Assembly (NCBI RefSeq): GCF_004307425.1 | Contig: NZ_SEWZ01000003.1 | Coordinates: 434,001-498,000, forward strand | Direction of reading: 5' to 3' | Source of the DNA: Aquirufa antheringensis | Lineage (GTDB): Bacteria > Bacteroidota > Bacteroidia > Cytophagales > Spirosomataceae | Length of the DNA: 64,000 bases | In this document: one piece after another, positions 374 to 59,957 of the stretch | Position numbering within the stretch: the stretch's first letter is position 1 | Layout of the letters: each line of letters starts with the position of its first letter | Made by a program: the position numbers and the translations under genes | The notes under the pieces: model-generated | Database searches by the model: none | What the model was told of the DNA's origin: nothing | What the model saw: only the letters and a program-made list of their open reading frames with translations

Positions 374-1801
374 ATGCAGGGATTATCTTTAAAACAGAAT
401 CAACAACAGAACCTCTCGCCGCAACAGATACAGTATATCAAGTTGTTGCAGATTCCTACCGCAGAATTAGCGGCTAGGATTGAGGAGGAATTAGAGGATA
501 ATCCGGCCTTAGAAGAGGGCTTAGATCATAATGAGGAGCAAGAACCACGTGAAACACTGGATGATCTGGAGCGCGAGGAGATGGAAGTGGGTGATTACCT
601 GCAAGATGACTATGCTGGTTATAAGATGGCCGGGGATTCCTATGATCCCAATGAGGAGACGCGCGAACGCCCTTTGGCCACTGAATCTAGCACCCAGGAA
701 TATTTATTAAACCAAATCCGTTACGTCGTTCGTTCCGAGCGAGAAGAAATTCTTGCCCAGCAAATCATCGGTTCTCTAGAAGAGGACGGTTATTTGCGCC
801 GAAACATTGAAAGCATTGTGAACGACCTTGCCTTCACCCAAGGCTTTGAAACGGATTACGACGAAGTGGAGCAGGTATTGTTCAAAGTGCAGTCCTTAGA
901 TCCGGCCGGAATCGCCGCTCGTTCCTTGCAAGAATGCCTTTCCTTGCAATTACACCGCAAAGAGTCAGACGCGCCGGCTCATCTAATCGCTATACGTTTA
1001 GTGGATGATTTTTTTGAAGAGTTTTCCAAAAAGCACTTCAGCATTTTATTGGCCAAACTAGCCATCACAGAAGAGGAGCTCAAAAAGGCGATGCAAGTCA
1101 TCACTCATTTGAATCCCAAACCAGGTGGTGGCGATGACGCGTCCATCGCCCCTTACTTACAGCCGGATTTCATCATCACGAATCAAAACGGCAAGATTGA
1201 GATCAAAATCAACGGCAAAAACGCCCCCGAACTTCGGGTTTCCCGCGCTTTCCAAGAGATGTTGCAGACCTACGACAAAGGCGACAAACATCAAAAGGAT
1301 ATCAAAGAGGCTGTTACGTTTATCAAGCATAAATTAGACTCCGCTTCTTGGTTTATTTCTGCCATTCAGCAACGCCAAGGCACCTTGATGAAAACCATGG
1401 AGAGTATCGTAGCGAAGCAATATGATTTCTTTTTAACGGGAGATGAATCCGTTTTAAAGCCAATGAAAATGAAGGAAATCGCCGCGATGATCGAAATGGA
1501 TATTTCCACGGTCTCTCGAGTGGTCTCGGCGAAGTCGGTGCAAGCAGATTTTGGCATCTATCCGCTAAAATACTTCTTCTCTGAAGGTATCACCCACGAA
1601 TCTGGCGAGGATTTCTCTACCCGGGAAGTGAAGAACATCTTACGCGAGATCATCGAACAAGAACCTAGCTCAGAACCGCATTCAGATGAGGATTTAGAGC
1701 AATTATTACTCGAACGCGGTTTCGTCGTGAAGCGCAGAACCGTGGCTAAATACCGCGATCAGCTGGGGATACCGGTGGCGAGGTTGCGGAAACACCTTTA
1801 A
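374..1801 (+). CDS. rpoN: RNA polymerase sigma-54 factor
   Basis: A 475-residue protein of normal RpoN length. The glutamine-rich region I (about residues 1-50, LSLKQNQQQNLSPQQIQYIK) is the part that contacts enhancer-binding proteins. An acidic linker follows at about 55-105, then the core-binding region (about 110-300), a helix-turn-helix (about 370-395, MKEIAAMIEMDISTVSRVVS) and the C-terminal RpoN box (RRTVAKYRDQLGIP) that reads the -24 element. It directs RNA polymerase to -24/-12 promoters and needs AAA+ activators, none of which lies in this window. It is divergent from asnS. Its stop codon touches a heptamer repeat array. Confidence 0.97.
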   Translation: MQGLSLKQNQQQNLSPQQIQYIKLLQIPTAELAARIEEELEDNPALEEGLDHNEEQEPRETLDDLEREEMEVGDYLQDDYAGYKMAGDSYDPNEETRERPLATESSTQEYLLNQIRYVVRSEREEILAQQIIGSLEEDGYLRRNIESIVNDLAFTQGFETDYDEVEQVLFKVQSLDPAGIAARSLQECLSLQLHRKESDAPAHLIAIRLVDDFFEEFSKKHFSILLAKLAITEEELKKAMQVITHLNPKPGGGDDASIAPYLQPDFIITNQNGKIEIKINGKNAPELRVSRAFQEMLQTYDKGDKHQKDIKEAVTFIKHKLDSASWFISAIQQRQGTLMKTMESIVAKQYDFFLTGDESVLKPMKMKEIAAMIEMDISTVSRVVSAKSVQADFGIYPLKYFFSEGITHESGEDFSTREVKNILREIIEQEPSSEPHSDEDLEQLLLERGFVVKRRTVAKYRDQLGIPVARLRKHL

Positions 1802-1924
1802 AATGGTTAATGGTAAATGGTGAATGGTAAATGAATGGTAAGTGGTAAATGGTAAATGGTGAACGAATGCTAAGTGGTAAATGGTGAATGGTGAACGAAT
1901 GCTAAGTGGTAAATGGTGAGTGAG
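1801..1924. repeat. Degenerate heptamer array (AAATGGT/GAATGGT type), left arm
   Basis: Starting at the last base of the rpoN stop codon, the sequence is almost entirely 7-base units of the form (A/G)A(A/G)TG(G/C)T. Four-base slips at 829-832, 861-864 and 893-896 create a higher-order repeat: the segments beginning at 833, 865 and 897 recur every 32 bases (four heptamers plus four bases). The complementary units occur on the far side of the next gene (2367-2441) in inverted orientation. Confidence 0.85.
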
Positions 1925-1992
1925 GGGCGGTTTTTTTATCATTTTGTTGATATGAATTGGACCTTAATTTCTCTATTTTTCGTCCAAAAAAA

Positions 1993-2355
1993 ATGGCCAC
2001 TAATCTTATTCAAACAAAATCGTTTGCCTACTCTCTACAAATTATAAACGTTTATAAAATCCTACAACTAGAAAGGGAATACGTCTTATCTAAACAACTA
2101 TTGAGGTGTTCAACCGCTGTGGGAGCCATGGTGATGGAGGCTAATCACGCAGAATCGAGAGCAGATTTTAAACACAAAATGAGTATCGCCCAAAAAGAAA
2201 TTAATGAATCAATCTATTGGCTAAAGCTATTAGGAGCAGCGAAATATCTTTCGGCAGAACAAATATTTCTACCATTGAAAGAGGCAAACGATATTTTGCA
2301 TATCATTACAAGAATTTTAATTACAGTAAAGCAAAACATGAAATTGAACACGTAA
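1993..2355 (+). CDS. Four helix bundle protein (23S rRNA intervening-sequence protein family)
   Basis: A 120-residue all-helical protein of the TIGR02436 four-helix-bundle family. Family hallmarks are LQLEREYVLSKQLLRCSTAV (about 25-45), VMEANHAESRADFKHKMSIA (about 47-67) and KEINESIYWLKLL (about 69-81). The family was named from ORFs inside 23S rRNA intervening sequences. It is structurally related to Avd, the accessory protein of diversity-generating retroelements, but most members stand alone with no known job. I chose the ATG at 1993 because family members begin just before the ..KSFAF.. segment and an A-rich stretch precedes it; an upstream ATG at 1957 would add 12 atypical residues. No 23S rRNA or reverse transcriptase gene is nearby. 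It is flanked by inverted heptamer arrays. Confidence 0.85.
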   Translation: MATNLIQTKSFAYSLQIINVYKILQLEREYVLSKQLLRCSTAVGAMVMEANHAESRADFKHKMSIAQKEINESIYWLKLLGAAKYLSAEQIFLPLKEANDILHIITRILITVKQNMKLNT

Positions 2356-2366
2356 TAGATTCTTTC

Positions 2367-2441
2367 ATTTACCATTCACCATTTTAATGCCATTCATTCA
2401 CCATTTACCATTCACCATTCACCATTTTAAGGCCATTCACC
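2367..2441. repeat. Degenerate heptamer array (ATTCACC/ATTTACC type), right arm
   Basis: Seven-base units ATT(C/T)ACC run from 2367 to 2441. They are interrupted twice by an 11-base unit ATTTTAAkGCC (2381-2391 and 2424-2434) and once by a four-base slip. The units are the reverse complement of those at 1801-1924, so the two arrays form inverted arms around the four-helix-bundle gene. The last unit ends directly before the ATG at 2442, so the ribosome-binding region of the hydratase gene lies inside the array. Confidence 0.85.
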
Positions 2442-3212
2442 ATGAAATTTTTAAAACTTCACCGCAACGGTCCCATCTGGACCTTGACTTTACACCGTCC
2501 TGAGGTTTATAATGCCTTAAATGCAGGTTTAATTCACGAAATTAGGGAAGTAGCCGAAGCCGCGCAAATTGATGACGAGGTGCGCGTTTTAGTGATCACG
2601 GGAGAGGGAAAAGCCTTTTGTTCTGGGGCAGACTTGAAGTCTGGTGTGAGTGATCCGAATCTGGGAAATGTGTTGCGATCCACCTACAACCCAATGATTA
2701 CTTCCTTGCGTGGTTTAAACAAACCCGTTATTGGTGCTATTAATGGGGTCGCAGCGGGTGCTGGCTGTAGTTTAGCCTTAGCCTGTGATTATATCATTGC
2801 GCACGAGGATGCGTATTTTTCTGAATTATTTGTCCAGATAGGTTTAGCCATGGATGCAGGCTCTACGGCCTTTTTAATGCAGTCTGTGGGTTATCACCGG
2901 GCTTTTGATTTAGCGACTACAGGAAGAAAGGTAGGAGCAAATGAAGCGAAAGAAATAGGTTTAGTCGCTGAAGTCGTTTCAGGGGCAAAGTGGGAAGGGA
3001 AGGTGCATGAGGTGGCTTTGGCCTTTTCGAAAAAAGCGACCTTAGCGATTTCGTTGATGAAACGTAGTTTACAACGCGCTTATAATCAGGATTTAGCAGC
3101 GACACTTGCCTCAGAAGCCGAAGAGCAAACGATTCTAGGACAAAGCGAAGATTTCGCGGAGGGGGTGATGGCTTTTATGCAGAAAAGGGCTCCTCACTTT
3201 AAAGGGAAATAA
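2442..3212 (+). CDS. Enoyl-CoA hydratase/isomerase family protein (PaaG-like)
   Basis: A 256-residue crotonase-fold protein. The oxyanion-hole segments are GKAFCSGADL (about 57-66) and GAAGAGCSLALACDY (about 101-118). After the second, FVQIGLAMDAGST carries an Asp where classical hydratases have a catalytic Glu. This fits the PaaG-type isomerases (1,2-epoxyphenylacetyl-CoA isomerase) and other ECH relatives better than the beta-oxidation hydratase. It would act on an acyl-CoA in the cytoplasm; the substrate cannot be read from the sequence. No other phenylacetate or beta-oxidation genes are adjacent. The start codon directly abuts the upstream heptamer array. Confidence 0.85.
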   Translation: MKFLKLHRNGPIWTLTLHRPEVYNALNAGLIHEIREVAEAAQIDDEVRVLVITGEGKAFCSGADLKSGVSDPNLGNVLRSTYNPMITSLRGLNKPVIGAINGVAAGAGCSLALACDYIIAHEDAYFSELFVQIGLAMDAGSTAFLMQSVGYHRAFDLATTGRKVGANEAKEIGLVAEVVSGAKWEGKVHEVALAFSKKATLAISLMKRSLQRAYNQDLAATLASEAEEQTILGQSEDFAEGVMAFMQKRAPHFKGK

Positions 3213-3236
3213 TTTTTAGAAAATTTTAGAGGATAG

Positions 3237-3268
3237 TTTTTCATTTTGCTAAAGAAATTCTACCTTTG
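3237..3268 (+). promoter_or_regulatory. Putative tRNA-Arg promoter (-33 TTTT, -7 TACCTTTG)
   Basis: TACCTTTG at 3261-3268 is a perfect TAnnTTTG -7 element 18 bases before the mature tRNA end. A T-rich stretch at 3237-3241, 19-20 bases upstream, is a plausible degenerate -33 element. Confidence 0.55.
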
Positions 3269-3286
3269 CAATCCCGAATGGGCAAT

Positions 3287-3360
3287 GGTTGCGTAGCTCA
3301 ATTGGATAGAGCATCTCACTACGGATGAGAAGGTTTGGGGTTCGAATCCCTACGCGACCA
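3287..3360 (+). tRNA. tRNA-Arg (anticodon ACG)
   Basis: A 74-base cloverleaf. The acceptor stem is GGTTGCG/CGCGACC with one G-U pair. The D arm is GCTC..GAGC. The anticodon stem TCTCA/TGAGA holds the loop CTACGGA, giving anticodon ACG, which is read as ICG for CGN arginine codons. The T arm contains GTTCGAATC. The discriminator is A3360 and no CCA is encoded, as is usual in Bacteroidota. Confidence 0.95.
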
Positions 3361-3369
3361 CGGAAATGA

Positions 3370-3400
3370 AAAGACCTACATAAATGTGTAGGTCTTTTTC
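3370..3400. terminator. Bidirectional intrinsic terminator after tRNA-Arg
   Basis: An 11-bp perfect stem AAAGACCTACA/TGTAGGTCTTT with a 6-base loop is followed by T's on the plus strand and flanked by A's that give T's on the minus strand. It lies between the convergent tRNA and AraC-type genes. Confidence 0.85.
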
Positions 3401-3416
3401 GTTTTAAAAAGTAGCG

Positions 3417-4535
3417 CTAAATTTTGTTCGTGTGTAATACCACGTATTCCGTTACTGACATTCCCATGAACTTTTTGAAATTCTTTGAAAAGGTAAATCT
3501 TGACTTAAATAAACAGTGGTCTCCTAAATGTGCAATCGTATAATTGTTCAAAAATTCTGAATTAATTAAGGAGATAGCATATTTAACTTTTATCAGATTT
3601 ATATAATCGTTTACGGAATAAAGGCAGTAATATTTGAACAAGATAGCGATATGACTTTTAGGGATTTTTAACTCTTTTGCTATCGTTTCGACTGTTAAAT
3701 TTTTTGTTTTTAAAACGTCCGGCGTATCCTGCAGTTGTTGAATTTTTAGCAATGTCGCGTCTATTGAAGGTAGCATTTGAGCATGAAGTACCTTGTCTTT
3801 TTCCTGAATTTTGACCGTGGGTTTAACACTCCAAATCAAAAAGTCTTGTGTTTGACTTACCGAAATTTGTTTAATCAAGTTGTTTTCTCCAAAAACGATC
3901 ACCGGATTTTGTAGCAGATACAAAAGGGCAACTAGCCAGAGAAAGGAAGAGTAGCCATAAAAATCCACTAAAGTTATTTTTACAGTAGTTGCACTAAACA
4001 AAAAATAATTCGACGATACAACTAACATGAAGGAGATAATCGTCATGATGGTAGCCCAATTTCTGACAGCTTTATTCGTTTTCATTTCCAGCATATTTCG
4101 GGTTCTTTTTCTGAATAATCCCCTCATAAGCCCTAGGATACCTAGAAAATAGGCACTTGAAAAAAATAAAAACACGATGTAGCTTACCGAATACTGTTTA
4201 AAAAACAAATCAAAAAATAAGAAGAGTGAAGGGGCAATAAAATGGATGACTTCTTTTTTTACTTCTACTTTATTTAAAATTAGCCTTCTGAAAAACAGGT
4301 AATAAACTGGAATAATAAATAGTCCAATGATGGGTCTGATTTTTAAAGGGCTGTAGGTTAAATAGGTTAGTTCTAATGCTTCGAAAGCATGAATAAAACG
4401 TTGTGCACCTACGATAAATAAGATAATGATTAGGTAAATGTTTTTCTGCTGATTAAATCGGACATTCGCTAGCATGAGGAGTACTAGCAAAAGACACAAG
4501 AACCCAACAAGTAAAGATGTTATGTGTAAAAACAT
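3417..4535 (-). CDS. Membrane-anchored AraC-family transcriptional regulator
   Basis: A 372-residue protein with two parts. Residues 1-220 hold about six or seven hydrophobic helices (the first is LLVGFLCLLLVLLMLANV). Residues about 260-372 form an AraC/HTH_18 DNA-binding domain: TVETIAKELKIPKSHIAILF is the first HTH and YTIAHLGDHCLFKSRFTFSK followed by FKKFMGMSVTEY is the second HTH and its signature end. Such 7TM-AraC regulators are common in Bacteroidota and are thought to sense envelope or extracellular cues; the ligand here is unknown. The gene is divergent from the secreted-protein cluster starting at 4646, which makes that cluster a candidate target. A TATATTTG -7 element ends only four bases before the ATG, so the mRNA may be leaderless. 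Confidence 0.85.
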   Translation of the reverse strand: MFLHITSLLVGFLCLLLVLLMLANVRFNQQKNIYLIIILFIVGAQRFIHAFEALELTYLTYSPLKIRPIIGLFIIPVYYLFFRRLILNKVEVKKEVIHFIAPSLFLFFDLFFKQYSVSYIVFLFFSSAYFLGILGLMRGLFRKRTRNMLEMKTNKAVRNWATIMTIISFMLVVSSNYFLFSATTVKITLVDFYGYSSFLWLVALLYLLQNPVIVFGENNLIKQISVSQTQDFLIWSVKPTVKIQEKDKVLHAQMLPSIDATLLKIQQLQDTPDVLKTKNLTVETIAKELKIPKSHIAILFKYYCLYSVNDYINLIKVKYAISLINSEFLNNYTIAHLGDHCLFKSRFTFSKNFKKFMGMSVTEYVVLHTNKI

Positions 4536-4560
4536 GTGTCAAATATACACAATGTGACAC
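4536..4560 (-). promoter_or_regulatory. Promoter and operator-like palindrome of the AraC-type gene
   Basis: GTGTCA (4536-4541) and TGACAC (4555-4560) form an inverted repeat enclosing the minus-strand -7 element TATATTTG (4547-4540). The palindrome touches the start codon at 4535. The overlap of symmetric site, -7 box and start codon suggests repression or autoregulation; this is inferred from position only. Confidence 0.4.
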
Positions 4561-4610
4561 GATAATTGATTCCCGGTTTGTAGGGTATTTCATCCTCTTT
4601 TAAAAGTTTT

Positions 4611-4645
4611 GAATTTGTAGTGGATCTCAATTTAAACTACAATTC
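4611..4645 (+). promoter_or_regulatory. Inverted repeat directly before the collar-domain gene
   Basis: GAATTTGTAGT (4611-4621) and ACTACAATTC (4636-4645) pair with one bulged base around a 14-base loop, ending directly before the ATG at 4646. It could be a 5'-UTR hairpin hiding the ribosome-binding region or a dimeric protein site. It lies in the divergent region shared with the AraC-type gene. Confidence 0.4.
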
Positions 4646-5539
4646 ATGAAAAAATCCCTTTCCCTCTTTTTGGTCTTATTGTGCTTTTTAAGCACCCATT
4701 TTCTGAATGCTCAAACGAGTGTCACATCCTCTGGAATGTCCATTCAAGGAATCGCTAGAGATGTCAATAATGAGGCTTTAGCGAATTTTGATCAGTTGAA
4801 TTTAAAGTTTGAAGTATACTATTTACTGGGATCTTCTACGACACCTACCGTTTTTATAACGGCGATAGCTACGGTCAAAACGGATAATTTTGGCGTTTTC
4901 TCCTACGTTTTAGATATCGATCAAAATCAATATAACCTAATTAGCAACAACGCATCGTATTTGAAAGTGAGTGCTAGTAATGTTGTTTTCTCCGATGAAA
5001 AATTAAGAAGCGTTCCCTATGCCGTATTCGCGCAAAACGGCGTTCCCACGGGCTCAATCATGCCATTTATTGGCACAAATGCCCCGTCTGGTTGGTTGTT
5101 GTGTGATGGATCTGCGATTCCGAGCGGATCTTATTATGATAATTTAAAGGCCTTAGCTGGTGCCAATACGCCTAATTTGAAAGGCTTGTTTTTACGTGGA
5201 GCAGGTGGTCAAACTGCCTATCCAGGTAAAGAGGGGCCTGCTTTGAAAGTAGTTCAACAAGATGATGTGAAAGCGCATTCTCATGCTATTGCCTTGACAT
5301 CGAGCAGTAATGGAGCTCACAATCATACAGTCGATTTTGGAAATGATGATTTTAATAGTAATGGTGGTAGTAATTCGAATGGATTGGTTAGAGATACGAC
5401 GGGGCCTAACAATAGATCTTTAATTACAAACACGGCTGCTAGTCATGCCCACAGTGTGAATGGGGTATCTGCAACTAATGGAGATGCATTGGAAACTCGC
5501 CCTATCAACTTTGGGGTAAACTATATTATCAAAATATAA
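4646..5539 (+). CDS. Secreted protein with phage tail-collar-like domain
   Basis: A 297-residue protein with a Sec signal peptide (MKKSLSLFLVLLCFLSTHFLNAQ). Residues about 30-130 form a beta-rich domain seen at the start of many secreted Bacteroidota proteins (SIQGIARDVNNEAL ... LRSVPYAVFAQ). Residues about 133-297 match tail-fibre/collar proteins: GSIMPFIGTNAPSGWLLCDG, LKGLFLRGAGG, a His-rich stretch with HSHAI and AHNHTVDFG, and the ending ETRPINFGVNYIIKI. In phages this domain trimerises and binds receptors or metals. No phage genes surround it, so a surface-adhesion role is more likely. It lies 47 bases before the giant T9SS protein and is probably co-transcribed with it. Confidence 0.8.
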   Translation: MKKSLSLFLVLLCFLSTHFLNAQTSVTSSGMSIQGIARDVNNEALANFDQLNLKFEVYYLLGSSTTPTVFITAIATVKTDNFGVFSYVLDIDQNQYNLISNNASYLKVSASNVVFSDEKLRSVPYAVFAQNGVPTGSIMPFIGTNAPSGWLLCDGSAIPSGSYYDNLKALAGANTPNLKGLFLRGAGGQTAYPGKEGPALKVVQQDDVKAHSHAIALTSSSNGAHNHTVDFGNDDFNSNGGSNSNGLVRDTTGPNNRSLITNTAASHAHSVNGVSATNGDALETRPINFGVNYIIKI

Positions 5540-5586
5540 TTTTTCTTTTTGATCCGCTTCCATTTATTCTACCTAATAATAACCTG

Positions 5587-26696: not shown

Positions 26697-29297
26697 ATGA
26701 ACCCCAATAATTACACCTCACAAGCTGGACTTATTATTCAAAACGCGATGGAAATCGCGAGCCAGAATGGTCAGCAAGCTATTGAAACGGGGCATCTTTT
26801 GCAAGCCATCTTGCAAGACGACACCCAAACATCCGCCTTTCTTTTAAAGAAGAATGGCGTGTCTGTTCCACAGATTCAAGATAAATTACAAAGCATCCTT
26901 TCTTCTTACCCGAAAGTATCAGGCGCTCAACCCTACGCGAGCAATGCCTTGCAGCAGGTTTTGACGAAAGCGGAGGCTTTGAAAACTGAATTTGGCGATT
27001 CGTATGTCAGCGTAGAGATTTTATTTCTCGCTCTAATTGAATCCAAAGATGCCGTTTCGGACCTATTAAAGTCCTTGGGCATCAACAAAGTAAATTTTAA
27101 GAAATCCATCACAGAATTAAGAGGAAATAGAAAAGTGAACGATCCACATGCAGAAGGTACTTACCAGTCTTTGGAAAAATACGGTAAGAATTTAAATGAA
27201 TTAGCTAAGGCCGGAAAAATCGATCCGGTCATCGGACGTGACGAAGAAATTCGCCGAGTCTTGCAGATATTATCCCGCAGAACGAAAAACAATCCCATAC
27301 TTTTAGGGGAACCGGGCGTAGGTAAAACCGCTATTGTAGAAGGTCTAGCCCAACGTATCGTCTCTGGAGACGTGCCTGAAAACTTGAAATCCAAGATCGT
27401 GATGTCGCTCGATATGGGACTTTTAGTCGCGGGGGCCAAGTACAAAGGGGAATTTGAGGAGCGTTTAAAGGCGGTCATCAAAGAAGTAACGGACTCCGAC
27501 GGAGAAATCGTTTTATTCATCGATGAGATCCACACCTTGATCGGTGCAGGCGGCGGAGGCGAAGGAGCGATGGATGCGGCGAACTTATTAAAACCAGCCT
27601 TAGCGCGTGGGGAACTGCATGCGATCGGTGCTACGACATTGAAAGAGTACCAAAAGTACATCGAGAAAGACAAAGCCCTCGAGCGTCGTTTCCAATCCGT
27701 TTTAGTGGAAGAACCGGATGTGGCAGATGCGATCTCCATTCTTCGCGGGATCAAGGATAAATATGAATTGCACCACGGGGTTCGAATCCAAGATGACGCG
27801 GTGATCGCGGCAGTAGAATTATCTAACCGCTACATCTCAGATCGTTTCTTGCCGGATAAGGCGATCGATTTGATGGATGAAGCGGCTGCCAAAATGCGCC
27901 TCGAAATCGACTCCGTACCGGAGGAAATCGATGACATCCAGCGCAAGATTATGCAGCTGGAGATCGAGCGCGAAGCGATTCGCCGCGAGAATAACAAAGA
28001 GAAGGAAACGATTTTATCACGCGATTTAGCGGATTTATCAGAGAAAAGAGATGCCTTGAAGGCCAAATGGCAGTCAGAGAAATCGGTGCTCGATGCGGTT
28101 CGTGCCGAAAAAGAGACGATTGATCGTTTAAAACTAGAGGCAGAACAAGCAGAACGCCAAGGCGATTACGGCAAGGTTGCCGAGATTCGCTACGGTCGTT
28201 TAGTCGAGTCAGAGCAGAAGTTAAAAGATATGCAGGCGCAGCCAGCGGGGGAGAACTCGATGTTGCAAGAGGAGGTGACGGCCGAAAACGTTGCCGAGGT
28301 GGTGGCGAAATGGACTGGAATTCCAGTGAGCCGCATGTTGCAAACGGAAGTGGAGAAATTATTGCATTTGGAAGATGAGCTGCACAAACGTGTGGCAGGT
28401 CAAGACCAAGCCATCGAAATGGTTTCTGATGCGGTGCGTCGTTCTCGTGCGGGATTACAAGATCCTAAGCGTCCAATCGGTTCGTTCATCTTCTTAGGTA
28501 CGACGGGGGTGGGGAAGACGGAATTAGCCAAGACTTTGGCCTCCTACCTATTCAATGACGAGAACGCGATGATCCGCATCGACATGTCAGAATACCAAGA
28601 ACGCCACGCGGTAAGCCGCTTAGTGGGAGCGCCTCCGGGATACGTGGGCTACGATGAGGGCGGACAGTTAACGGAAGCCGTACGTCGCAAACCTTACTCG
28701 GTTGTGTTGTTGGATGAGATCGAAAAGGCGCATCCAGACGTTTGGAACATCTTATTACAAGTATTAGACGAGGGTCGATTAACAGATAACAAGGGTCGCA
28801 CCGCGAACTTTAAGAACACGATCATCATTATGACGTCTAACATCGGTAGCCACTTAATTCAAGAGAAAATGGCTCAGATGGAAGGCTGGAATAATGCCTT
28901 GATTTTAGAGGAGACCAAAGAAGAAGTAATGACATTACTGAAACAAGTAGTCCGTCCTGAATTCTTAAACCGTGTGGATGAGGTGGTGTTGTTCGAACCA
29001 TTAACCTTAGAACATGCACGTAAAATTTTAGCGATCCAGTTTAAAGAGGTTCAAAAGCGTTTAGCAGAACAAAACATAACCTTGGAAGCATCAGAAGAAG
29101 CCTTGAATAAACTCGCAACTGATGGATATGATCCAAATTACGGTGGTCGTCCGATGAAACGTGTGCTTCAAAAAGCGGTGCTGAATGAATTGTCGAAGGC
29201 TATATTATCTGGCAAGATTCAGAAAGATTCAGCGGTGATGATGGAGTTGGATGCGAAGGGGGAGCTGAGTTTTGAAAACGTGGAGGTGGAAATTTAA
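26697..29297 (+). CDS. clpB: ATP-dependent chaperone ClpB
   Basis: An 866-residue Hsp100 disaggregase. The N-domain (about 1-145) contains two Clp repeats ([25 protein letters not shown]). AAA1 (about 155-400) has Walker [10 protein letters not shown] and Walker [15 protein letters not shown]. The M-domain coiled coil (about 405-525, rich in E, K and R) identifies ClpB rather than ClpA/C. AAA2 (about 545-770) has GTTGVGKTE and [14 protein letters not shown], and the C-terminal D2-small domain follows. It threads aggregated proteins with DnaK help and should be heat-inducible. No heat-shock promoter could be assigned in the 111-base upstream gap. The stop codon touches a heptamer array. Confidence 0.98.
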
Positions 29298-29331
29298 GAG
29301 TAGAGAGAGGAGAGTAGAGAGTATAGATTTG
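29297..29331. repeat. Heptamer array (AGAGTAG type)
   Basis: Five in-phase 7-base units run from the last base of the clpB stop codon: AGAGTAG, AGAGAGG, AGAGTAG, AGAGTAT, AGATTTG, followed by GAATC. The period matches arrays elsewhere in the window although the unit differs. A terminator follows at once. Confidence 0.75.
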
Positions 29332-29334
29332 GAA

Positions 29335-29364
29335 TCAAAAAAGCGGCAATTGCCGCTTTTTTGA
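29335..29364. terminator. Bidirectional intrinsic terminator between clpB and the dehydrogenase gene
   Basis: TCAAAAAAGCGGCA/TGCCGCTTTTTTGA is a perfect palindrome: a GC core with A-tract and T-tract arms that serves both strands. It lies between convergent genes and is flanked by heptamer arrays on both sides. Confidence 0.9.
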
Positions 29365-29378: not shown

Positions 29379-29470
29379 GCTGCTTCGCAGCTGAAACTGA
29401 TAAATATTTCTGAATTTATCCCCGCAGGGGATTCCAACTTTATTCTTTGTGCTCTATGCTTTATAATCTG
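29379..29470. repeat. Triloop hairpins, TTCCAACTTT motif and heptamer array
   Basis: A 5-bp stem triloop hairpin GCTGC-TTC-GCAGC lies at 29379-29391 and a second, CCCC-GCA-GGGG, at 29420-29430. The motif ATTCCAACTTT follows directly at 29431. Heptamers then run in phase from 29436 to 29470: AACTTTA, TTCTTTG, TGCTCTA, TGCTTTA, TAATCTG. The array crosses the stop codon of the dehydrogenase gene (29461-29463). The same hairpin-motif-heptamer order recurs near 35.76 and 59.89 kb. Confidence 0.75.
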
Positions 29471-30819
29471 TTTTGCAAGCAAACCGTCCTCATAAACCGA
29501 TAAATCGCCTGCGTTCCCACGCTCGTACTCCTCGAGTCTGTAGTAGCAGGATAAGGTCCTCCATGGACCATTGCGCCAGAAACTTCCACGCCTGTAGGGA
29601 AACCGTTGAATAATAGGCGGCCTACTTTTTGTAGTAAGGCATCGACTAATTCTTCTGAAATTTCAGCTTTGGTTCCGTGAATGGTGCCTGTTAACTGTCC
29701 GTCTATTGATTCAATAAACGTCAACATTTCTGCTTCATCTTCTACTAAAATTGCGACCGTGCATGGTCCAAAAACTTCTTCCAAAATAGCGTGATTGGCA
29801 GTAGCAGCCTCAGCCACAAATAAGGCAGGAGAAGGTAGCTCGCGCGAGGTTAATTGCTTAGCATGTTTTGCAAGGTTAGCAACGCCGGAAGCGTAGGCAG
29901 ATGCAATTCCAGGCGTTAAGAAAGTGCCCAATGGTAATTTATCTAATTCAGTTGCTAGCAAATCAAGGAAAGATGCATCCTGCTTTTGAAGGATGATGAG
30001 GCCCGGATTTGTGCAGAATTGTCCCACGCCTAAGCAAACTGAACCAGCCAGTCCTGCTGCTAGGGCTGCTGGATTTTCGGCGATTTTGTTCGATAATAAA
30101 ATCACAGGATTCACGCTACCCATTTCCGCATAAACAGGAATGGGATGAGGTCTGCGAACGGCTAAATCATATAATGCTTTCCCCCCTCGATAAGACCCTG
30201 TGAAACCTATTGCTTGTATTTCTGGGTGCTGCACTAAATGAGATCCTACCTCGTTCGAAGAGCCGTGAATCAAGGCGAAAACGCCAGCAGGTAAACCACA
30301 AGATGCGACTGCTTTAGAAATCGCTGAGCCTACTAATTCCCCTGTTTTGGGATGAGCTGGGTGTGCTTTGAAAACGACTGGGCATCCCGCAGCTAGGGCG
30401 GAAATCGTATCTCCACCTGCTACTGAAAAGGCTAATGGGAAGTTGCTTGCCCCGAAAACGGCCACAGGACCTAGCGGGATTTGGGTTTGAAATAGGTCCG
30501 GTTTAGGTAGCGGTGCACGATCTGGCTGAGCGGGATCATGGATTTCTTTTTTCCAAGCAGGATTAGAGATGAAGTCAGCGAAGGCTTGAATTTGGCCTGT
30601 GGTGCGACCTCTTTCTCCCGTAATGCGCGCTTCTGGGAGGTTAGATTCTGCGCAGGCGCTTTGGATTAATTCATCACCTAAGGCCATGATTTCGCGGGAT
30701 ATGGTTTCTAAGAAGGCAGCACGATTAACATCTGAAATCCGGCGATAAATAGGAAATGCGGCTTTTGCAGCGGCAATGGCTGAGTCGATTTCTGCAATCG
30801 AAGCGTCTGTATAATTCAT
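29461..30819 (-). CDS. Aldehyde dehydrogenase, 2-oxoglutarate semialdehyde (2,5-dioxovalerate) type
   Basis: A 452-residue NAD(P)-dependent aldehyde dehydrogenase. It shows PVAVFGASNFPLAFSVAGGD, a nucleotide-site GFTGSYRGG, the general-base Glu in VYAEMGSVNP and the nucleophilic Cys in LGVGQFCTNPG (about residue 270). The FGASNFPLAFS and EMGSVNP signatures fit the KGSADH class, which oxidises 2-oxoglutarate semialdehyde to 2-oxoglutarate in oxidative pentose and sugar-acid pathways. Its start overlaps the stop of the upstream FAH-family gene by one base (TAATG), so the two are coupled, and the pair fits consecutive pathway steps. The final codons lie in a heptamer array. Confidence 0.85.
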   Translation of the reverse strand: MNYTDASIAEIDSAIAAAKAAFPIYRRISDVNRAAFLETISREIMALGDELIQSACAESNLPEARITGERGRTTGQIQAFADFISNPAWKKEIHDPAQPDRAPLPKPDLFQTQIPLGPVAVFGASNFPLAFSVAGGDTISALAAGCPVVFKAHPAHPKTGELVGSAISKAVASCGLPAGVFALIHGSSNEVGSHLVQHPEIQAIGFTGSYRGGKALYDLAVRRPHPIPVYAEMGSVNPVILLSNKIAENPAALAAGLAGSVCLGVGQFCTNPGLIILQKQDASFLDLLATELDKLPLGTFLTPGIASAYASGVANLAKHAKQLTSRELPSPALFVAEAATANHAILEEVFGPCTVAILVEDEAEMLTFIESIDGQLTGTIHGTKAEISEELVDALLQKVGRLLFNGFPTGVEVSGAMVHGGPYPATTDSRSTSVGTQAIYRFMRTVCLQNRL

Positions 30820-35536: not shown

Positions 35537-35603
35537 AATTTTCAGGTAAGGATTTTAAAATTGTGCTGCGCAATAATTTTGTAAATCCTTACCTGAAAAT
35601 TTT
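35536..35603. repeat. Long inverted repeat with tip ATTGTGCTGCGCAAT
   Basis: Left arm (35536-35562, AAATTTTCAGGTAAGGATTT then TAAAATT) and right arm (35575-35602) are reverse complements with about one mismatch and a one-base bulge. The tip ATTGTGCTGCGCAAT (about 35560-35574) is itself nearly palindromic. The arm starts in the symporter stop codon, so the element probably also ends its transcript. The same tip occurs with unrelated arms at 48881-48942. Confidence 0.85.
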
Positions 35604-35617
35604 TCTGAAGACTTTTT

Positions 35618-35676
35618 GACTTGATCGCGAAGCGATGACTAAGCCGTAGGCGACTAAGTTGCATAGCAACGACTAC
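35618..35676. repeat. Three triloop hairpins separated by GACTNN spacers
   Basis: Reading along the plus strand: GACTTG, ATCGC-GAA-GCGAT (35624-35636), GACTAA, GCC-GTA-GGC (35643-35651), GACTAA, GTTGC-ATA-GCAAC (35658-35670), GACTAC. The spacers are exactly six bases and share GACT; the stems are perfect and unrelated in sequence; each loop is three bases. A terminator follows directly. Confidence 0.8.
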
Positions 35677-35717: not shown

Positions 35718-35813
35718 CAGTGGACAGTAGCCAGTCAAAACACTGCAGAATTCATCGCCGAAGGCGATTCCAACTTTGAACTTTGCTCTTTAAACTTTGA
35801 GATTTGATTTCTG
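35712..35813. repeat. Heptamer arrays, triloop hairpin and TTCCAACTTT motif upstream of the acs stop
   Basis: Four weak heptamers (AGTCGTC, AGTGGAC, AGTAGCC, AGTCAAA; 35712-35739) are followed by the hairpin TCGCC-GAA-GGCGA (35755-35767) and directly by TTCCAACTTT. Six in-phase heptamers then run 35772-35813: AACTTTG, AACTTTG, CTCTTTA, AACTTTG, AGATTTG, ATTTCTG. The array stops seven bases short of the acs stop codon. Confidence 0.75.
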
Positions 35814-47760: not shown

Positions 47761-47761
47761 A

Positions 47762-48061: not shown

Positions 48062-48062
48062 C

Positions 48063-48880: not shown

Positions 48881-48942
48881 GAATTGGATTCAAAATGCAG
48901 AAATTGTGCTGCGCAATAATTTCTTGCATTTTAATCCAATTC
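48881..48942. repeat. Long inverted repeat with tip ATTGTGCTGCGCAAT (second copy)
   Basis: Arms 48881-48905 (GAATTGGATT then CAAAATGCAGAAATT) and 48918-48942 pair with two single-base bulges. The tip ATTGTGCTGCGCAAT (48903-48917) is identical to that at 35.56 kb, whereas the arms are unrelated to those of the first copy. It lies in the 306-base gap between the PASTA and oxidoreductase genes. Confidence 0.85.
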
Positions 48943-48998
48943 CATTCTTCTTTTTCTTCCTTCTCTCTACTCTATTATCTATTCTCTTTAATCTACAT
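48943..48998. repeat. Heptamer array (TCTCTAC/TCTATTA type)
   Basis: Eight in-phase 7-base units follow directly after the inverted repeat: CATTCTT, CTTTTTC, TTCCTTC, TCTCTAC, TCTATTA, TCTATTC, TCTTTAA, TCTACAT. The first three are weak; the last five are clear. Similar units resume after the terminator at 49042. Confidence 0.75.
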
Positions 48999-49008
48999 TT
49001 TGCGTAAC

Positions 49009-49035: not shown

Positions 49036-49041
49036 AAAATC

Positions 49042-49147
49042 TCTCTACTCTTTACTCTATAATCTCTACTCTTATAAGTCTATCGACTAGTGACTATCGA
49101 CTAGTGACTAGTGACTATCGACTATCGACTAGTGACTATCGACTAAT
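49042..49147. repeat. Heptamer arrays (TCTCTAC type, then GACTATC/GACTAGT type)
   Basis: Five units of the first type run 49042-49076 (TCTCTAC, TCTTTAC, TCTATAA, TCTCTAC, TCTTATA). After one base come ten in-phase units of a second type at 49078-49147 (GTCTATC, then GACTAGT, GACTATC and variants, ending GACTAAT). The last unit crosses the stop codon of the oxidoreductase gene (49143-49145). This is the cleanest array in the window: the nine GACTAnn units vary only in their last two bases. Confidence 0.9.
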
Positions 49148-50468: not shown

Positions 50469-50476
50469 TAGATAGG

Positions 50477-51983: not shown

Positions 51984-51991
51984 TATTTTTG
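51984..51991 (+). promoter_or_regulatory. Putative -7 element (TATTTTTG) of the metZ-nuoH unit
   Basis: TATTTTTG fits TAnnTTTG and lies 14 bases before the ATG at 52006, giving a short leader. No clear -33 TTTG is seen at 19-21 bases, so support is moderate. Confidence 0.45.
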
Positions 51992-52005
51992 TAGATTAAT
52001 AATTG

Positions 52006-54266: not shown

Positions 54267-54322
54267 GGAATCTCCTTTATATTTTGTTTATTTACAAAAT
54301 TGCTTCTGTTAACCTATCTTAT

Positions 54323-56728: not shown

Positions 56729-56730
56729 TC

Positions 56731-57879
56731 ATGCCTCAATTATATAAAAGCAGTCTTTTTTATACCATTTTAGTGGGCTTAATCGCATGGGCATGTGTGA
56801 ATCCGATTACGGATTTCGTTCAAGTAGATTCGACCTCTTTCACCACAATAGAAGCAGATATTTCAGATGACGCAGCCTTAAGTAAAGTGCGTTTAACGAG
56901 CTCATCTAATCGACTTACTTCCCAATTTTCTCTTCCTATTTCGAAGGCGACCGTTTCTGTGACAGACCAAAACGGAGTCAAAACGACCTTTACAGAGGGT
57001 ATTCCTACAGGCACTTACTATCCTAGTGCAGGTTTTAAAGGTGCAGTAGGATCATCCTATAAATTGGCTGTTAAATTACTCACGGGTCAAACGTATGAAA
57101 GTGCAGTAGAAACGATGAAGGCCGTGCCAGAAATTGAAAATCTAATCACTCGTTTTGAGACCTTAGAACAATATCCTAAAGTCGATGTCAGACGTGCGGG
57201 ATTCTCCGTTTACTTGGATTTTAAAGATTTCCAAAGTGAGGGAGACTTTTACCTTTGGAACTGGAAACACTTTGAAAAAATTAGACTATGCGCTACCTGC
57301 ACCGATGGTGGCCGTTATGATTTCAAGAAGTTAGATTGCGTGCAACCTCGTTTTCCTACGGATGCCATTTTGAATTATATGTGTGATGGTAATTGCTGGG
57401 ACATCTCTACAAACAATGATTTGAATGTTTTCTCAGATGTTCTAACGAATGGCCAAAGAGTCGTAGGTCGTCAAGTAGCCAGAATTCCATTCGATAACTG
57501 GACCCCTTATTATTTCCGTTTGGAACAACGCTCTATTACCCGAAGTGCCTTTGATTTTTATCAATCACTTATTTCTCAAATTCAGTCTTCCGGTTCTTTA
57601 TTTGATGTACCTGCTGAAACGCGTTTTAGTTTAAATATCAAATCCCTAACGAATCCAGCAGAGAAAGTGATAGGTATATTCAATGTATTCTCCGTGCGTA
57701 AAAAAATATTTATTGTCGATCGCTCTAAGAATATTCCGATAGGGGAGTTGCCTATCATTCCTATAATTCCAGGAGAAACCTATGCTTGTCCTCCAGGATC
57801 GGTGGGTTGTCAAGATAAGGTTCCTTGCATCGAATCGAATACACGGACAAAAATTACCCCAGAAGGTTGGGTATTCTAG
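56731..57879 (+). CDS. DUF4249 lipoprotein, partner of the TonB-dependent receptor
   Basis: A 382-residue lipoprotein (lipobox IAWAC, Cys at about residue 22) with the DUF4249 fold: an N-terminal beta domain (about 25-130, TTIEADISDDAALSKVRLTS) and a larger domain (about 135-382) with VDVRRAGFSVYLDFKDFQSE and PYYFRLEQRSITRSAFDFYQ. Two Cys-rich segments stand out: RLCATCTDGGRYD with LDCVQPR, and MCDGNCWDIS, plus CPPGSVGCQDKVPC near the end. They suggest disulfides or a metal site. It starts two bases after the TonB receptor stop. Proteins of this family are thought to sit on the receptor surface; function remains undefined. Confidence 0.88.
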   Translation: MPQLYKSSLFYTILVGLIAWACVNPITDFVQVDSTSFTTIEADISDDAALSKVRLTSSSNRLTSQFSLPISKATVSVTDQNGVKTTFTEGIPTGTYYPSAGFKGAVGSSYKLAVKLLTGQTYESAVETMKAVPEIENLITRFETLEQYPKVDVRRAGFSVYLDFKDFQSEGDFYLWNWKHFEKIRLCATCTDGGRYDFKKLDCVQPRFPTDAILNYMCDGNCWDISTNNDLNVFSDVLTNGQRVVGRQVARIPFDNWTPYYFRLEQRSITRSAFDFYQSLISQIQSSGSLFDVPAETRFSLNIKSLTNPAEKVIGIFNVFSVRKKIFIVDRSKNIPIGELPIIPIIPGETYACPPGSVGCQDKVPCIESNTRTKITPEGWVF

Positions 57880-57887
57880 TTTTTTAG

Positions 57888-57901
57888 GCACAAATTTGTG
57901 C
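57888..57901. promoter_or_regulatory. Perfect 14-bp palindrome before hemH
   Basis: GCACAAATTTGTGC is fully self-complementary and lies in the 35-base gap between the DUF4249 gene and hemH. A T-run precedes it and ATGATA follows 13 bases later. It could be a dimeric repressor site or a weak terminator. Confidence 0.4.
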
Positions 57902-57914
57902 TTTAATTCAAACT

Positions 57915-58925
57915 ATGATAGGTGTTTTATTAGTTAATCTGGGAACTCCAGATGATCCGGGTACCCCAAGTGTACGCAAGTATTTACGGGAGTTTTTAAT
58001 GGATGGTCGTGTCATTGACATTCCTTATCCATTCCGATACTTATTAGTGAATGGGATAATTGCCCCTTTCAGAGCACCCCAATCTGCGAAAATCTACAAA
58101 GAGCTGTGGGAAGAGCGCGGTTCTCCCTTGAAGTTTTACGGGGAAGACGTTTGCGCGTCTTTGACCGAAAAACTAGGTGATGGATACATGGTTCGCTTAG
58201 CTATGCGTTACCAAAGTCCAGATTTAAAGTCAGTTATGTCAGAAATGCAAACCGCAAATCTGAAGAAATTAATTGTCATCCCTTTCTTTCCGCAATACGC
58301 CTCAGCTACCACCGGTTCCGTTTATGAGCGCGTGATGGAAATTATGTCTGATTGGCAAATTATGCCATCTCTTTCGATGGTGAGCTATTTTTACCAGCAT
58401 CCTATTTTTGCCAAATACTTCGCTGATAAAGCTGCGAACTACCAAAAAGACGTAAACTTCGATTATTATTTATTCTCTTATCACGGAGTTCCAGAACGCC
58501 ATATTCGCAAGGGAGATATCACGAAGAATACGTGTGTGTTTGGTACTTGTTGTGAAACGATTACAGAAAAAAACCACAGTTGCTACCGGGCCCAATGCCA
58601 CGAGACTACTCGTCTAATCGCTGCAGAAATGGGATTAAAACCAGGAACCTTTGGTACTGCTTTTCAAAGCCGCTTAGGTCGTGACCCTTGGTTACAACCT
58701 TATACGGATGAGACGATTAAAAAGTTAGTTAAAGAAGGTAAGAAGAAGATTTTAGCCTTCTCTCCAGCTTTCGTGGCGGATTGTCTAGAAACCACGATTG
58801 AAGTGGGTGAGGAGTACAAAGAATTATTTGAAGAAGCAGGTGGCGAGCACTGGCAATTGGTAGAGAGCTTGAATAATTCGCCGGAATATGTGGCACTTTT
58901 AGAGGACCTTGTAAAGAACTCATAA
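57915..58925 (+). CDS. hemH: Ferrochelatase
   Basis: A 336-residue protein, standard bacterial length. It has VLLVNLGTPDDPGTPSVRKY at the start, PFFPQYASATTGSVYERVME, the catalytic His in YLFSYHGVPERHIRKGD, RAQCHETTRLIAAEM, FGTAFQSRLGRDPWLQPYTD, and SPAFVADCLETTIEVGEE with the conserved Glu. It inserts Fe2+ into protoporphyrin (or coproporphyrin) in heme synthesis. A Cys-rich insert (NTCVFGTCCETITEKNHSCY, about 205-225) precedes RAQC; similar inserts occur in other bacterial ferrochelatases, some of which carry [2Fe-2S] clusters. It stands two bases after nothing related: the next gene follows one base later. Confidence 0.96.
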   Translation: MIGVLLVNLGTPDDPGTPSVRKYLREFLMDGRVIDIPYPFRYLLVNGIIAPFRAPQSAKIYKELWEERGSPLKFYGEDVCASLTEKLGDGYMVRLAMRYQSPDLKSVMSEMQTANLKKLIVIPFFPQYASATTGSVYERVMEIMSDWQIMPSLSMVSYFYQHPIFAKYFADKAANYQKDVNFDYYLFSYHGVPERHIRKGDITKNTCVFGTCCETITEKNHSCYRAQCHETTRLIAAEMGLKPGTFGTAFQSRLGRDPWLQPYTDETIKKLVKEGKKKILAFSPAFVADCLETTIEVGEEYKELFEEAGGEHWQLVESLNNSPEYVALLEDLVKNS

Positions 58926-58926
58926 A

Positions 58927-59790
58927 ATGGTAGCTCTTATTTTAACGATCGTATTCTCTGTATTGTTGTTGGTCAATTTTCGTGCCCACGCAAAATTCAA
59001 TATCGATACGCGTATTGCCATTCTATTAAACTACCCCGTTTGTTTTTTAACGGGGTATTTCCATCAAATGGATGCAATTCCCTTCCATTGGCCTTCCACG
59101 GGTTATTCCTTGGGGATTTTGGGTATTGGAGTTGGTTTCGTGATAACATTTTTATTGTCGGGTTATTCGACCGTAAAAAACGGAATGGCGCCCACGTCTT
59201 TAGCCAATAACATCTCTTTAGTGATTCCCGTCCTGGTGAATCTTTTTATTTGGAAGACGGGAGGGGATCTCACTTTACCCGTCATTGCGGGGCTTATCTT
59301 ATCATTTGCTGCTATCTATTTCTGTAGTCCATCCGGGACAGGATCAGTCCAAAAACCTGTTATTGGGGCTTTAGTCGCTGTTTTTGTGGCGTATGGGATT
59401 ACGAATACGGCTTTTAATTATTTAAACGCTGCGATTGTGCAGCAAGTGGGAGGAAGTATTTCGTTTACGTTGATGCTCCTGCTAGGTTCGATGGTAACTT
59501 CCGCTGTTGTTTTAGCTTATTGGACGATTACAGGTGGTGTGACTTGGTCGCTTCGCTCCGTTTTAGCGGCAATCCCATTAGGATTACCTAATTTCTTCTC
59601 TTTCTACTTCTTGTTAAAAGCCTTGGATGCCTACCAACAAAATGGCGCGGTGGTTTTAACTATCTATAACCTAGGAGTGATACTGCTGAGTGCGGTAACG
59701 GCTTTGTTATTCTTCCGGGAAAAGTTGACGAAGAAGCAGTGGTTGGGGATTGGGTTAGGGTGCCTTGGAATCGCTTTAATCATTCTGTAA
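58927..59790 (+). CDS. EamA/DMT-superfamily membrane transporter
   Basis: A 287-residue protein with about ten hydrophobic helices in two similar halves, typical of the drug/metabolite transporter superfamily. Representative segments are LILTIVFSVLLLVNF at the start, LANNISLVIPVLVNLFIW (about 97-114), LPNFFSFYFLLKALDAYQQN (about 220-239) and KKQWLGIGLGCLGIALIIL at the end. The AYQQNGAVVLTIYNLGVILL stretch matches the EamA-like signature. Substrate unknown. The start lies one base after the hemH stop (TAAAATG), so the two are co-transcribed; link to heme export is speculation. A heptamer array begins just after its stop. Confidence 0.85.
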   Translation: MVALILTIVFSVLLLVNFRAHAKFNIDTRIAILLNYPVCFLTGYFHQMDAIPFHWPSTGYSLGILGIGVGFVITFLLSGYSTVKNGMAPTSLANNISLVIPVLVNLFIWKTGGDLTLPVIAGLILSFAAIYFCSPSGTGSVQKPVIGALVAVFVAYGITNTAFNYLNAAIVQQVGGSISFTLMLLLGSMVTSAVVLAYWTITGGVTWSLRSVLAAIPLGLPNFFSFYFLLKALDAYQQNGAVVLTIYNLGVILLSAVTALLFFREKLTKKQWLGIGLGCLGIALIIL

Positions 59791-59792
59791 AT

Positions 59793-59827
59793 TTCAAAGT
59801 TCAAAGAGTAAAGTTCAAAGTTGGAAT
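59793..59827. repeat. Heptamer array (TTCAAAG type), left arm with inverted TTCCAACTTT motif
   Basis: Five in-phase units: TTCAAAG, TTCAAAG, AGTAAAG, TTCAAAG, TTGGAAT. CAAAGTTGGAAT at 59816-59827 is the reverse complement of the ATTCCAACTTTG motif found at the other loci. It begins two bases after the EamA stop codon. Confidence 0.8.
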
Positions 59828-59859
59828 AAAAAAAGGGAGCATCGCTCCCTTTTTTTATA
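59828..59859. terminator. Strong bidirectional terminator between the EamA gene and yicC
   Basis: AAAAAAAGGGAGC pairs perfectly with GCTCCCTTTTTTT around ATC, with tracts suited to both strands. It lies between convergent genes and inverted heptamer arms. Confidence 0.9.
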
Positions 59860-59883
59860 GTATTTAAAATGTTTCATGTGCTG

Positions 59884-59957
59884 TTGCGAAGCAATATCCA
59901 ACTTTGTTCTTTTTGCTTTGTTCTTTGTGCTTTGAATGTTTTATAATTGCTCCGCAA
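59884..59957. repeat. Triloop hairpin, TCCAACTTT motif, heptamer array and second triloop hairpin
   Basis: TTGC-GAA-GCAA (59884-59894) is followed by TATCCAACTTTG and then six heptamers 59900-59941: AACTTTG, TTCTTTT, TGCTTTG, TTCTTTG, TGCTTTG, AATGTTT. A second small hairpin TTGC-TCC-GCAA (59947-59957) ends directly before the yicC stop codon. The array is inverted relative to the one at 59793-59827. Confidence 0.8.

Follow-up and report, generated by a model that had tools for sequence, protein, structure and literature searches.

Intergenic heptameric repeats of bacteria go by the name STRR, and a different class of two-part system is formed by the REP (repetitive extragenic palindromic) sequences with their RAYT transposases, in which a protein gene flanked by inverted repeats is accompanied by dispersed repeats and paired miniature forms. 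Heptameric intergenic repeats have been described as GGGAATC in Xanthomonas and GGGGAYT in Nostoc, with 70 and 75 convergent inverted pairs in two Xanthomonas genomes; they are reported to be over-represented in many bacterial genomes, an excess to which no cause is assigned there, and the same report says that detailed literature on heptameric repeats was unavailable (PMC4692102). TAACTGA repeats are reported from Beggiatoaceae, cyanobacteria and five Bacteroidetes (PMC4679880). The intervening sequences of 23S rRNA carry an S23p open reading frame (ORF) and complementary borders, are excised by RNase III and are sporadically distributed in Coxiella, Leptospira and others (PMC4990558). Here we analyse a 64,000-nucleotide stretch of the Aquirufa antheringensis genome (contig NZ_SEWZ01000003.1, positions 434,001 to 498,000; hereafter the window), which contains what we call an IVP-heptamer element: an array, a gene of about 120 codons for an intervening-sequence protein (IVP) of the PF05635/S23 family, and a reverse-complement array. 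The unit of these elements is short, mostly purine-rich and usually 7 bp long, with AG plus five further bases on the sense strand, and each array has about 5-18 copies of it in the host genome.

The initial annotation of the window had pointed to degenerate tandem units of exactly 7 bp at five gaps. Tandem Repeats Finder (TRF) called period 7 at 1801-1917, 2395-2426, 29297-29327, 35772-35800, 49041-49072, 49080-49145, 59789-59822 and 59902-59934, and direct reading confirmed units at all five regions; it also revealed an array at 48953-48994 and, near 29436-29472, a degenerate partner. The sample for comparing period 7 with other periods and with shuffled sequence comprised the window and a further 20 stretches, each of 20 kb, taken from contigs C1 and C2 (in all 464 kb of 2,495,574 bases). 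Masking of ORFs of at least 90 codons left 202 intergenic segments totalling 37.8 kb; an array was defined as at least 22 of 28 matches at a given lag. Intergenic DNA contained 15 arrays at lag 7, four at lag 14 and one each at lags 9 and 10, with none at lags 3-6, 8, 11-13, 15 and 16, and five dinucleotide shuffles gave no array at any lag. Lag 7 and its double account for 19 of the 21 arrays, although lag-14 arrays may overlap lag-7 ones. Excluding the window left 12 arrays at lag 7, three at lag 14, one each at lags 9 and 10, and none at the others. The coding-DNA control gave 2-3 arrays at all lags alike and was uninformative; two of the 20 stretches include long N runs, to which two of the arrays at each lag are probably due.

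A looser cut-off listed 31 arrays in the same sample, seven of them within the window, and by eye 29 of the 31 fell into four unit classes: CAAAGNN, GGTRAAT, TAGTCGM and AGAGTAK/GCATAAA. The first three are units of IVP elements of the host genome (L001, L003 and L004), and the last is the unit of an IVP clade in relatives (L245, L246, L250, L253 and L256). The idea of a class defined by its period rather than by one sequence is upheld, with units specific to their loci, but the units are not all unrelated, as had been supposed. Other periods had also been missed: 8, 15/22 and 19 occur in relatives as well as 7. Three other accounts of the arrays were rejected: unrelated simple repeats, given that lag 7 and its double dominate and that IVP elements have the same unit classes; decayed copies of a single longer element, given four unit classes with differing internal hairpins; and G-quadruplexes as a general cause, since the consensus units of the window have at most two adjacent G on either strand and GGG appears only in some relatives.

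The arrays of the first region enclose a gene. The upstream arm (1801..1919, + strand; 18 copies by TRF, with interruptions, and 8 exact GGTRAAT units) begins at the rpoN stop codon and is followed by the IVP gene, also labelled S23 or 'four helix bundle' (1993..2355, + strand, 120 aa). The downstream arm, identified by TRF and sequence (2372..2443, − strand, units ATTTACC/ATTCACC), reaches the start codon of the next gene, of the enoyl-CoA hydratase (ECH) family (2442-3212). The previously noted position at gene ends is supported here, and what had been missed is the IVP gene between the arrays, their inverted arrangement and the small number of unit classes. The upstream arm aligns with the reverse complement of the downstream arm with a score of 66, against a shuffled maximum of 30, and the element as RNA folds at -178 kcal/mol (z -10, 20 shuffles). 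The host genome has four PF05635 genes, three of which have a period-7 array on each side, the units of one array being the reverse complement of those of the other, and the fourth of which has 19-bp units with mini-hairpins; arm-to-arm local alignment scores at the four loci are 176, 62, 60 and 79, compared with 16-22 between loci. Such 19-bp units, with GACTA-like linkers and mini-hairpins of the TCGCGAAGCGA type, occur in one IVP clade of the genus (L002, L033, L237, L240 and L242) and have a REP-like look.

The window IVP matches PF05635 (23S_rRNA_IVP) with 75.8 bits (E 3.6e-21; curated cut-off 33.8) and has an isoelectric point (pI) of 9.4; median pI values across our samples are 8.5-9.2, compared with 5.7 for control proteins of the ParE family. 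Its AlphaFold model (pLDDT 93.6) is a four-helix bundle whose best structural matches are 2rld and 2gsc, with a TM score of 0.84-0.88 to 2rld, and each of these entries contains five chains. A PF05635 protein of X. campestris is described as a toroidal homopentamer, and the S23/IVP family, with two solved structures, as being without known function (PMC4990558, citing Lin 2006 for the pentamer).

To ask how general the association is, we collected IVP loci from searches of 38 genus, 150 family and 148 phylum genomes at 30 loci per search, later retrieving all 60 IVP matches in the genus, together with 13 plasmid loci from 37 matching records (12 cyanobacterial and one from Riemerella). Flanks of 300 bp were scored with a cut-off of 0.6 identity at lag 7 over 35 bases, leaving out three of 106 loci (ORF below 250 nt, flank below 150 bases or at least 5 N) and representing the genus by 29 loci (L005-L033). 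The cut-off was reached by 112 of 203 IVP flanks and by none of the 203 shuffled ones, divided into 6/8 for the host genome, 39/53 for the genus, 30/56 for the family, 19/60 for the phylum and 18/26 for the plasmids. Around ParE-family genes from the same bacterial family (28 of 30 loci, two with a stop being omitted) it was reached by 1 of 56 flanks, and by 1 of 56 after shuffling. The two arms also match each other within a locus: setting other genus members aside, 46 of 76 arm pairs scored above the 95th percentile of cross-locus pairs and 28 above the 99th, compared with 4 and 1 of 28 for the ParE controls. Within the genus only 1 of 26 exceeded the 95th percentile, since orthologues sharing a unit act as cross pairs for one another.

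A broader scan of genomes from 84,980 species gave 584 confirmed matches, of which the best 80 were taken as named loci. By their record titles these belong to Proteobacteria, Bacteroidetes, Nitrospirae, Firmicutes, Planctomycetes, Verrucomicrobia, Acidobacteria, Cloacimonadota, patescibacteria, an ANME-1 archaeon and others. Among these best 80, 85 of 156 flanks reached the lag-7 cut-off, and 62 loci did so with one or both flanks; flanks with N were kept in this test, so that one of the 85 (at L159) is an N run, and the ORF of L179 was misread. The arms matched above the 95th percentile of cross pairs in 48 of 71 testable loci and above the 99th in 28. The best lag was 7 in 76 of the 156 flanks, 8 in 19 and 14 in 16, and seven is therefore the rule but not the sole period. 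When the order of unit variants was compared between arms, it was mirrored slightly more often than expected by chance (p<0.05 in 8/76 and 6/40 loci), and we rejected the possibility that the arms are kept as exact palindromes.

Outside the genus, the two neighbours of the IVP gene run in the same direction at 94 of 118 loci (21/27, 23/27, 41/52 and 9/12 in the separate sets), compared with 13/27 for ParE, and the arms occupy the short gaps around it, with medians of 62-83 bases upstream and 41-54 downstream. In Dokdonella and Dyella, for example, the gene lies between accB and accC as we read the surrounding sequence. Within the genus the neighbours are co-directional at 7 of 48 loci and convergent or divergent at 35. 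At three loci on cyanobacterial plasmids the IVP gene lies inside CRISPR operons as annotated, as cas6-IVP-cas4 in two and cas10-IVP-cmr3 in one (L094, L098 and L099). Two Calothrix plasmid loci (L105 and L324) have the same annotated neighbours and so give no evidence of movement. No rRNA match was found with Rfam at any of the 40 IVP loci scanned, a part of those collected, and a scan of the window returned one tRNA only.

We then asked whether the unit sequence follows the protein. Unit classes were assigned to 59 of the 60 genus IVP loci (L005, with N in both arms, being omitted), about eight by eye and the rest by motif counts, and were fixed before tree building. On the tree of the 59 proteins the 12 classes require 11 changes, which is the minimum, whereas shuffled labels require 44.5 on average and none of 200 shuffles came as low as 11. 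This match is due in part to common descent, many genus loci being orthologous in place. Beyond the genus (108 loci, 5778 pairs) mean unit similarity climbs with protein similarity at each step, from 0.37 to 0.66, and none of 2000 permutations equalled the unit similarity of the 475 pairs with a protein similarity of at least 0.5; the median of five units in this comparison is a floor of the method and has no bearing on a pentamer. Alignment of 99 upstream arrays revealed a common AG dinucleotide (A 0.81, G 0.84) and a consensus information of 2.95 bits, against at most 2.36 in 20 position-permuted sets. On the sense strand purines predominate in 203 of 249 arrays, and C is scarce.

Many arrays have no IVP gene between them. 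The units of most of these are those of IVP clades present in the genome itself or in its genus; miniature inverted pairs are frequent among them, and many arrays stand alone. In the genus, a count by hand gave at least two TAGTCG arrays away from an IVP gene in 5 of the 6 genomes that have the cognate clade and in none of the other 32; six of the latter have one match. At least ten CAAAG matches, including those at IVP genes, occur in 4/4 genomes with the cognate clade versus 4/34 without, and at least two TAGGTA matches in 4/4 versus 6/34. Fisher values for the three units are 1e-5, 9e-4 and 3e-3, ignoring kinship and with cut-offs picked after the counts had been seen. The gene-less arrays also have a preferred facing: among the matches listed for Solimonas, Dokdonella (52 of 262) and the host genome (G000, 100 of 124), neighbours less than 400 bp apart are '+ then −' in 24 cases, '− then +' in none and in the same direction in three, and '+ then −' is the facing of the arms of the IVP gene. 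Overlapping matches to GGGAWTN in 15 named genomes number 262 in Dokdonella, 71 in Solimonas, 25 in Deefgea, 17 in Dyella and 2 in one Flavobacterium, with none in the remaining ten. IVP genes with flanking GGGATTC or GGGAATC units were found in Dokdonella, Solimonas and Dyella (1, 1 and 2 genes), and the single IVP of Deefgea has GGGGAGT/GGGGATT-like units downstream.

The remaining arrays of the window belong to this gene-less group. Directly after a clpB-like gene lies an inverted pair of AGAGTAG/AGTATAG units, its left arm at 29297..29335 (+ strand, TRF and sequence) and its right arm, TTATTCTTTGTGCTCTATGCTTTAT, at 29436..29472 (− strand, sequence and fold), with a strong terminator-like hairpin inside at 29335..29364 (sequence and fold); the whole pair folds as RNA with z -6.95, and its arms form a weaker inverted pair, scoring 20, which equals the maximum of 500 shuffles. 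A second pair, of the TTCAAAG class, has its left arm at 59789..59824 (+ strand, TRF) and its right arm, CAACTTTGTTCTTT..., at 59899..59937 (− strand, TRF and arm-to-arm score), again with a strong terminator-like hairpin, at 59826..59857 (sequence and fold); its inverted score is 27 against a shuffled maximum of 22, and it folds with z -8.53. Judged by their sequence, both pairs look like miniature forms with a strong internal hairpin. A lone array of the AACTTTG (= CAAAGTT) class at 35772..35807 (− strand, TRF) has the unit of the host IVP element L003. At 48953..48994 and 49038..49075 (both − strand, the latter called by TRF) are arrays of the TCTCTAC (= AGAGTAK) class, a unit of the relatives' IVP clade (L245, L246 and kin) and of none of the four host IVPs; the second is a direct copy of the first (direct score 33 versus inverted 10). 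They are followed at 49077..49145 (− strand, TRF) by an array of the GACTAKY (= TAGTCGM) class, which shares its unit with the host IVP element L001.

Other repeats accompany these arrays. About 100 bases before the AACTTTG array, at 35624-35676, is a chain of mini-hairpins with three-base loops and GACTA links (ATCGCGAAGCGAT GACTAA GCCGTAGGC GACTAA GTTGCATAGCAAC GACTA), which resembles the 19-bp unit class in style. A hairpin core (AAATTGTGCTGCGCAATAATTT) is present in two dispersed copies, at 35545-35605 and 48885-48945, each within a longer intergenic inverted repeat. In five relatives, array-hairpin-inverted-array units adjoin the IVP gene (L245, L246, L250, L253 and L256), so that the miniature form may be the base of a full element or be nested with it.

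Comparison at the rpoN-ECH site of 23 genus loci with the close homologue shows turnover, with filled, empty, inverted and array-only states. The searches found an IVP at 9 of the 23, reversed in one (G003); this reversed copy (L285) is diverged and broken by one stop, and thus decayed. G017, whose rpoN is 97% identical, has nine bases from stop to start and no array, and by eye no array is present at the site in G031, G024, G022 or G033. A TAGGTA array without an IVP occupies the site in G036 and G006, other repeats do so in G026, G010 and G018, and four further loci contain other, apparently coding DNA. Upstream of the ECH gene, L275, L278 and L279 have GTAGAGACGCGATACCTCGCGTCT palindromes in place of the IVP element, in tandem in two of them. 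Counts of GGTRAAT in the upstream and downstream arms are 8/7 in G000, 5/4 in G011, 4/4 in G013 and 17/4 in G027, so that unit numbers as well as site states differ among relatives. The site looks like a hot spot.

What could account for the association across many phyla, the inverted arms, the match of unit and clade, the gene-less arrays with the same units and the turnover at one site? On balance we favour the explanation that the arrays are parts of selfish two-part elements, each consisting of a ring-forming nucleic-acid-binding protein and the heptamers that it recognises. By analogy with its X. campestris relative the IVP would form a ring, which may bind the units as DNA or RNA, perhaps with one unit per subunit, and the 7-base step would be set in this way. 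Both the element and its derivatives without a gene would spread as selfish DNA, and pairing of the arms in the transcript could make insertion between operon genes tolerable, as with the 23S rRNA intervening sequences. We infer from these patterns the binding, the reading by a ring, how the elements spread and what the stem does in transcripts. The weak mirroring of unit variants suggests that recognition of units is favoured over upkeep of an exact duplex. The initial annotation had raised a protein-driven process with a 7-base step, and this gains indirect support from units that track the clades of one protein family with a reportedly pentameric member. More speculatively, and with appreciably less confidence, we suggest that IVP-heptamer elements could form a superfamily of selfish elements, so far unrecognised, in bacteria and some archaea, behind much of the heptamer excess, including that of cyanobacterial and Xanthomonas type; in these elements a ring would read one unit per subunit, its geometry would set a step of 7 or 8 bases, and every clade would use a 'word' of its own.

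A narrower form of the favoured explanation, the probability of which overlaps with it, is a transposon-like DNA element whose inverted arrays are IVP binding sites used with a host or borrowed enzyme and whose miniature pairs are non-autonomous copies, like REP pairs. The fixed facing of pairs, the reversed IVP at the orthologous site in G003 and the presence of one IVP gene against many cognate matches (1/262 in Dokdonella, 1/71 in Solimonas) fit this version, but Pfam sees no catalytic domain in the window IVP and copying within a genome was not caught in the act; we regard it as a serious possibility, short of an even chance. It is unlikely, in our view, that the arms are only a transcript stem, cut by RNase III and harmless in operons, with units that are not read and a period that is a by-product. 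Such an RNA element would agree with the family relationship to 23S rRNA intervening sequences, whose complementary borders are cut by RNase III (PMC4990558), with the z of -10 for the element RNA and with the 94 of 118 co-directional loci and short gaps outside the genus. However, a stem requires neither a period nor a unit class, variant order is weakly mirrored, many gene-less arrays stand alone, and in the genus 35 of 48 loci lie between convergent or divergent genes.

Two further accounts appear very improbable. Ordinary slippage, with IVP genes merely inserting in or near arrays that have no partner protein, would explain the copy numbers that vary between orthologous arms and the heptamer excess known without an assigned partner (PMC4692102), but it does not predict inverted and locus-matched arms, a unit that tracks the protein clade, array-poor ParE controls or the dominance of lag 7 and its double, and the earlier doubt that simple slippage would choose seven every time is supported. 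A route by reverse transcription, in which the IVP acts as the related Avd does and assists a reverse transcriptase in copying the element RNA, so that the addition of units would be templated, is suggested by the shared fold of Avd (4dwl) and the ribonucleoprotein of a diversity-generating retroelement (8ub7), with TM scores of 0.66-0.76. Their Foldseek E values are, however, at least 0.04, and a pectin methylesterase inhibitor ranks ahead of Avd (E 0.03, TM 0.56-0.60).

Several observations weigh against the two-part element that we favour. Just 19 of 60 phylum flanks reach the cut-off, and in the family, phylum and plasmid samples the best lag was none of 7, 14, 21 or 8 in 33 of 142 flanks. 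Unit and protein may have been inherited together without recognition at the many genus loci that are orthologous in place, and the co-occurrence of units and clades is subject to the same shared ancestry, with cut-offs chosen post hoc. Units and genes also come apart: AGAGTAK, a unit class of the host genome, has its cognate IVP only in relatives, and TAGGTA arrays are present in G006 and G026, both 98% complete, in which no IVP was found. Presence and absence at the rpoN-ECH site fit loss as well as insertion, and the slight mirroring of variant order indicates that the arms are not maintained as exact palindromes. Finally, Pfam sees no nuclease or transposase domain in the window IVP, and a report on the Coxiella element holds that its protein is probably not produced in vivo.

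If the favoured explanation is correct, two loose ends are joined, namely the unexplained excess of heptamers and the S23/IVP family of no known function: in each clade the flanks of the IVP gene spell out a predicted ligand for the protein, and the repeats acquire a predicted partner. These elements may explain the known excess of 7-base repeats in bacteria. Should IVPs indeed read the units, their many genes would amount to a natural list in which each protein is matched to its word, for a protein that is tiny and usually basic. Both heptameric repeats and the intervening sequences of 23S rRNA have been described before, and their link appears new in the literature searched: neither 'S23' nor 'four helix' occurs in the main texts of PMC4692102 and PMC4679880, and no publication connecting heptameric repeats with S23/IVP was found among the matches listed in a search that did not cover most subscription journals or bioRxiv and so does not prove absence. 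The earlier statement that no named class fits thus holds for the IVP partner, which is absent from those descriptions, but not for the repeats themselves, which are known from cyanobacteria, Xanthomonas, Beggiatoaceae and Bacteroidetes.

The arrays described here resemble those heptameric repeats in their 7-bp, mostly intergenic units that depend on the lineage, in their excess in intergenic DNA (15 arrays, or 12 without the window) and in their facing, which is that of the convergent Xanthomonas pairs. They differ from the published descriptions in having an IVP partner, and units of GGGAATC type adjoin IVP genes in Dyella, Dokdonella and Solimonas, as other heptamers do in cyanobacterial plasmids. 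With the 23S rRNA intervening sequences the elements share the protein family, a small ORF between complementary, stem-forming sequences and a sporadic distribution; unlike them, they lie between protein-coding genes, without an Rfam rRNA match at the 40 scanned loci, have arms built as arrays of short units and coexist with dispersed gene-less arrays. The likeness to Avd of diversity-generating retroelements (4dwl, 8ub7) lies in the four-helix-bundle fold, at a low identity of 12-17%. TRAP, the trp RNA-binding attenuation protein, is a ring of unrelated fold that reads evenly spaced short motifs, and its likeness to a ring reading spaced units would be one of analogy only. REP/RAYT systems likewise place one gene between inverted repeats and have many dispersed cognate repeats and paired miniature forms, but here the protein belongs to PF05635 and the repeat is a tandem 7-mer array instead of a single hairpin, with the exception of the 19-bp mini-hairpin units of L002 and its kin. 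The element class is widespread and apparently mobile. By its protein and complementary ends the element is of the intervening-sequence kind, and as far as anatomy tells it would work like a two-part system of the REP type.

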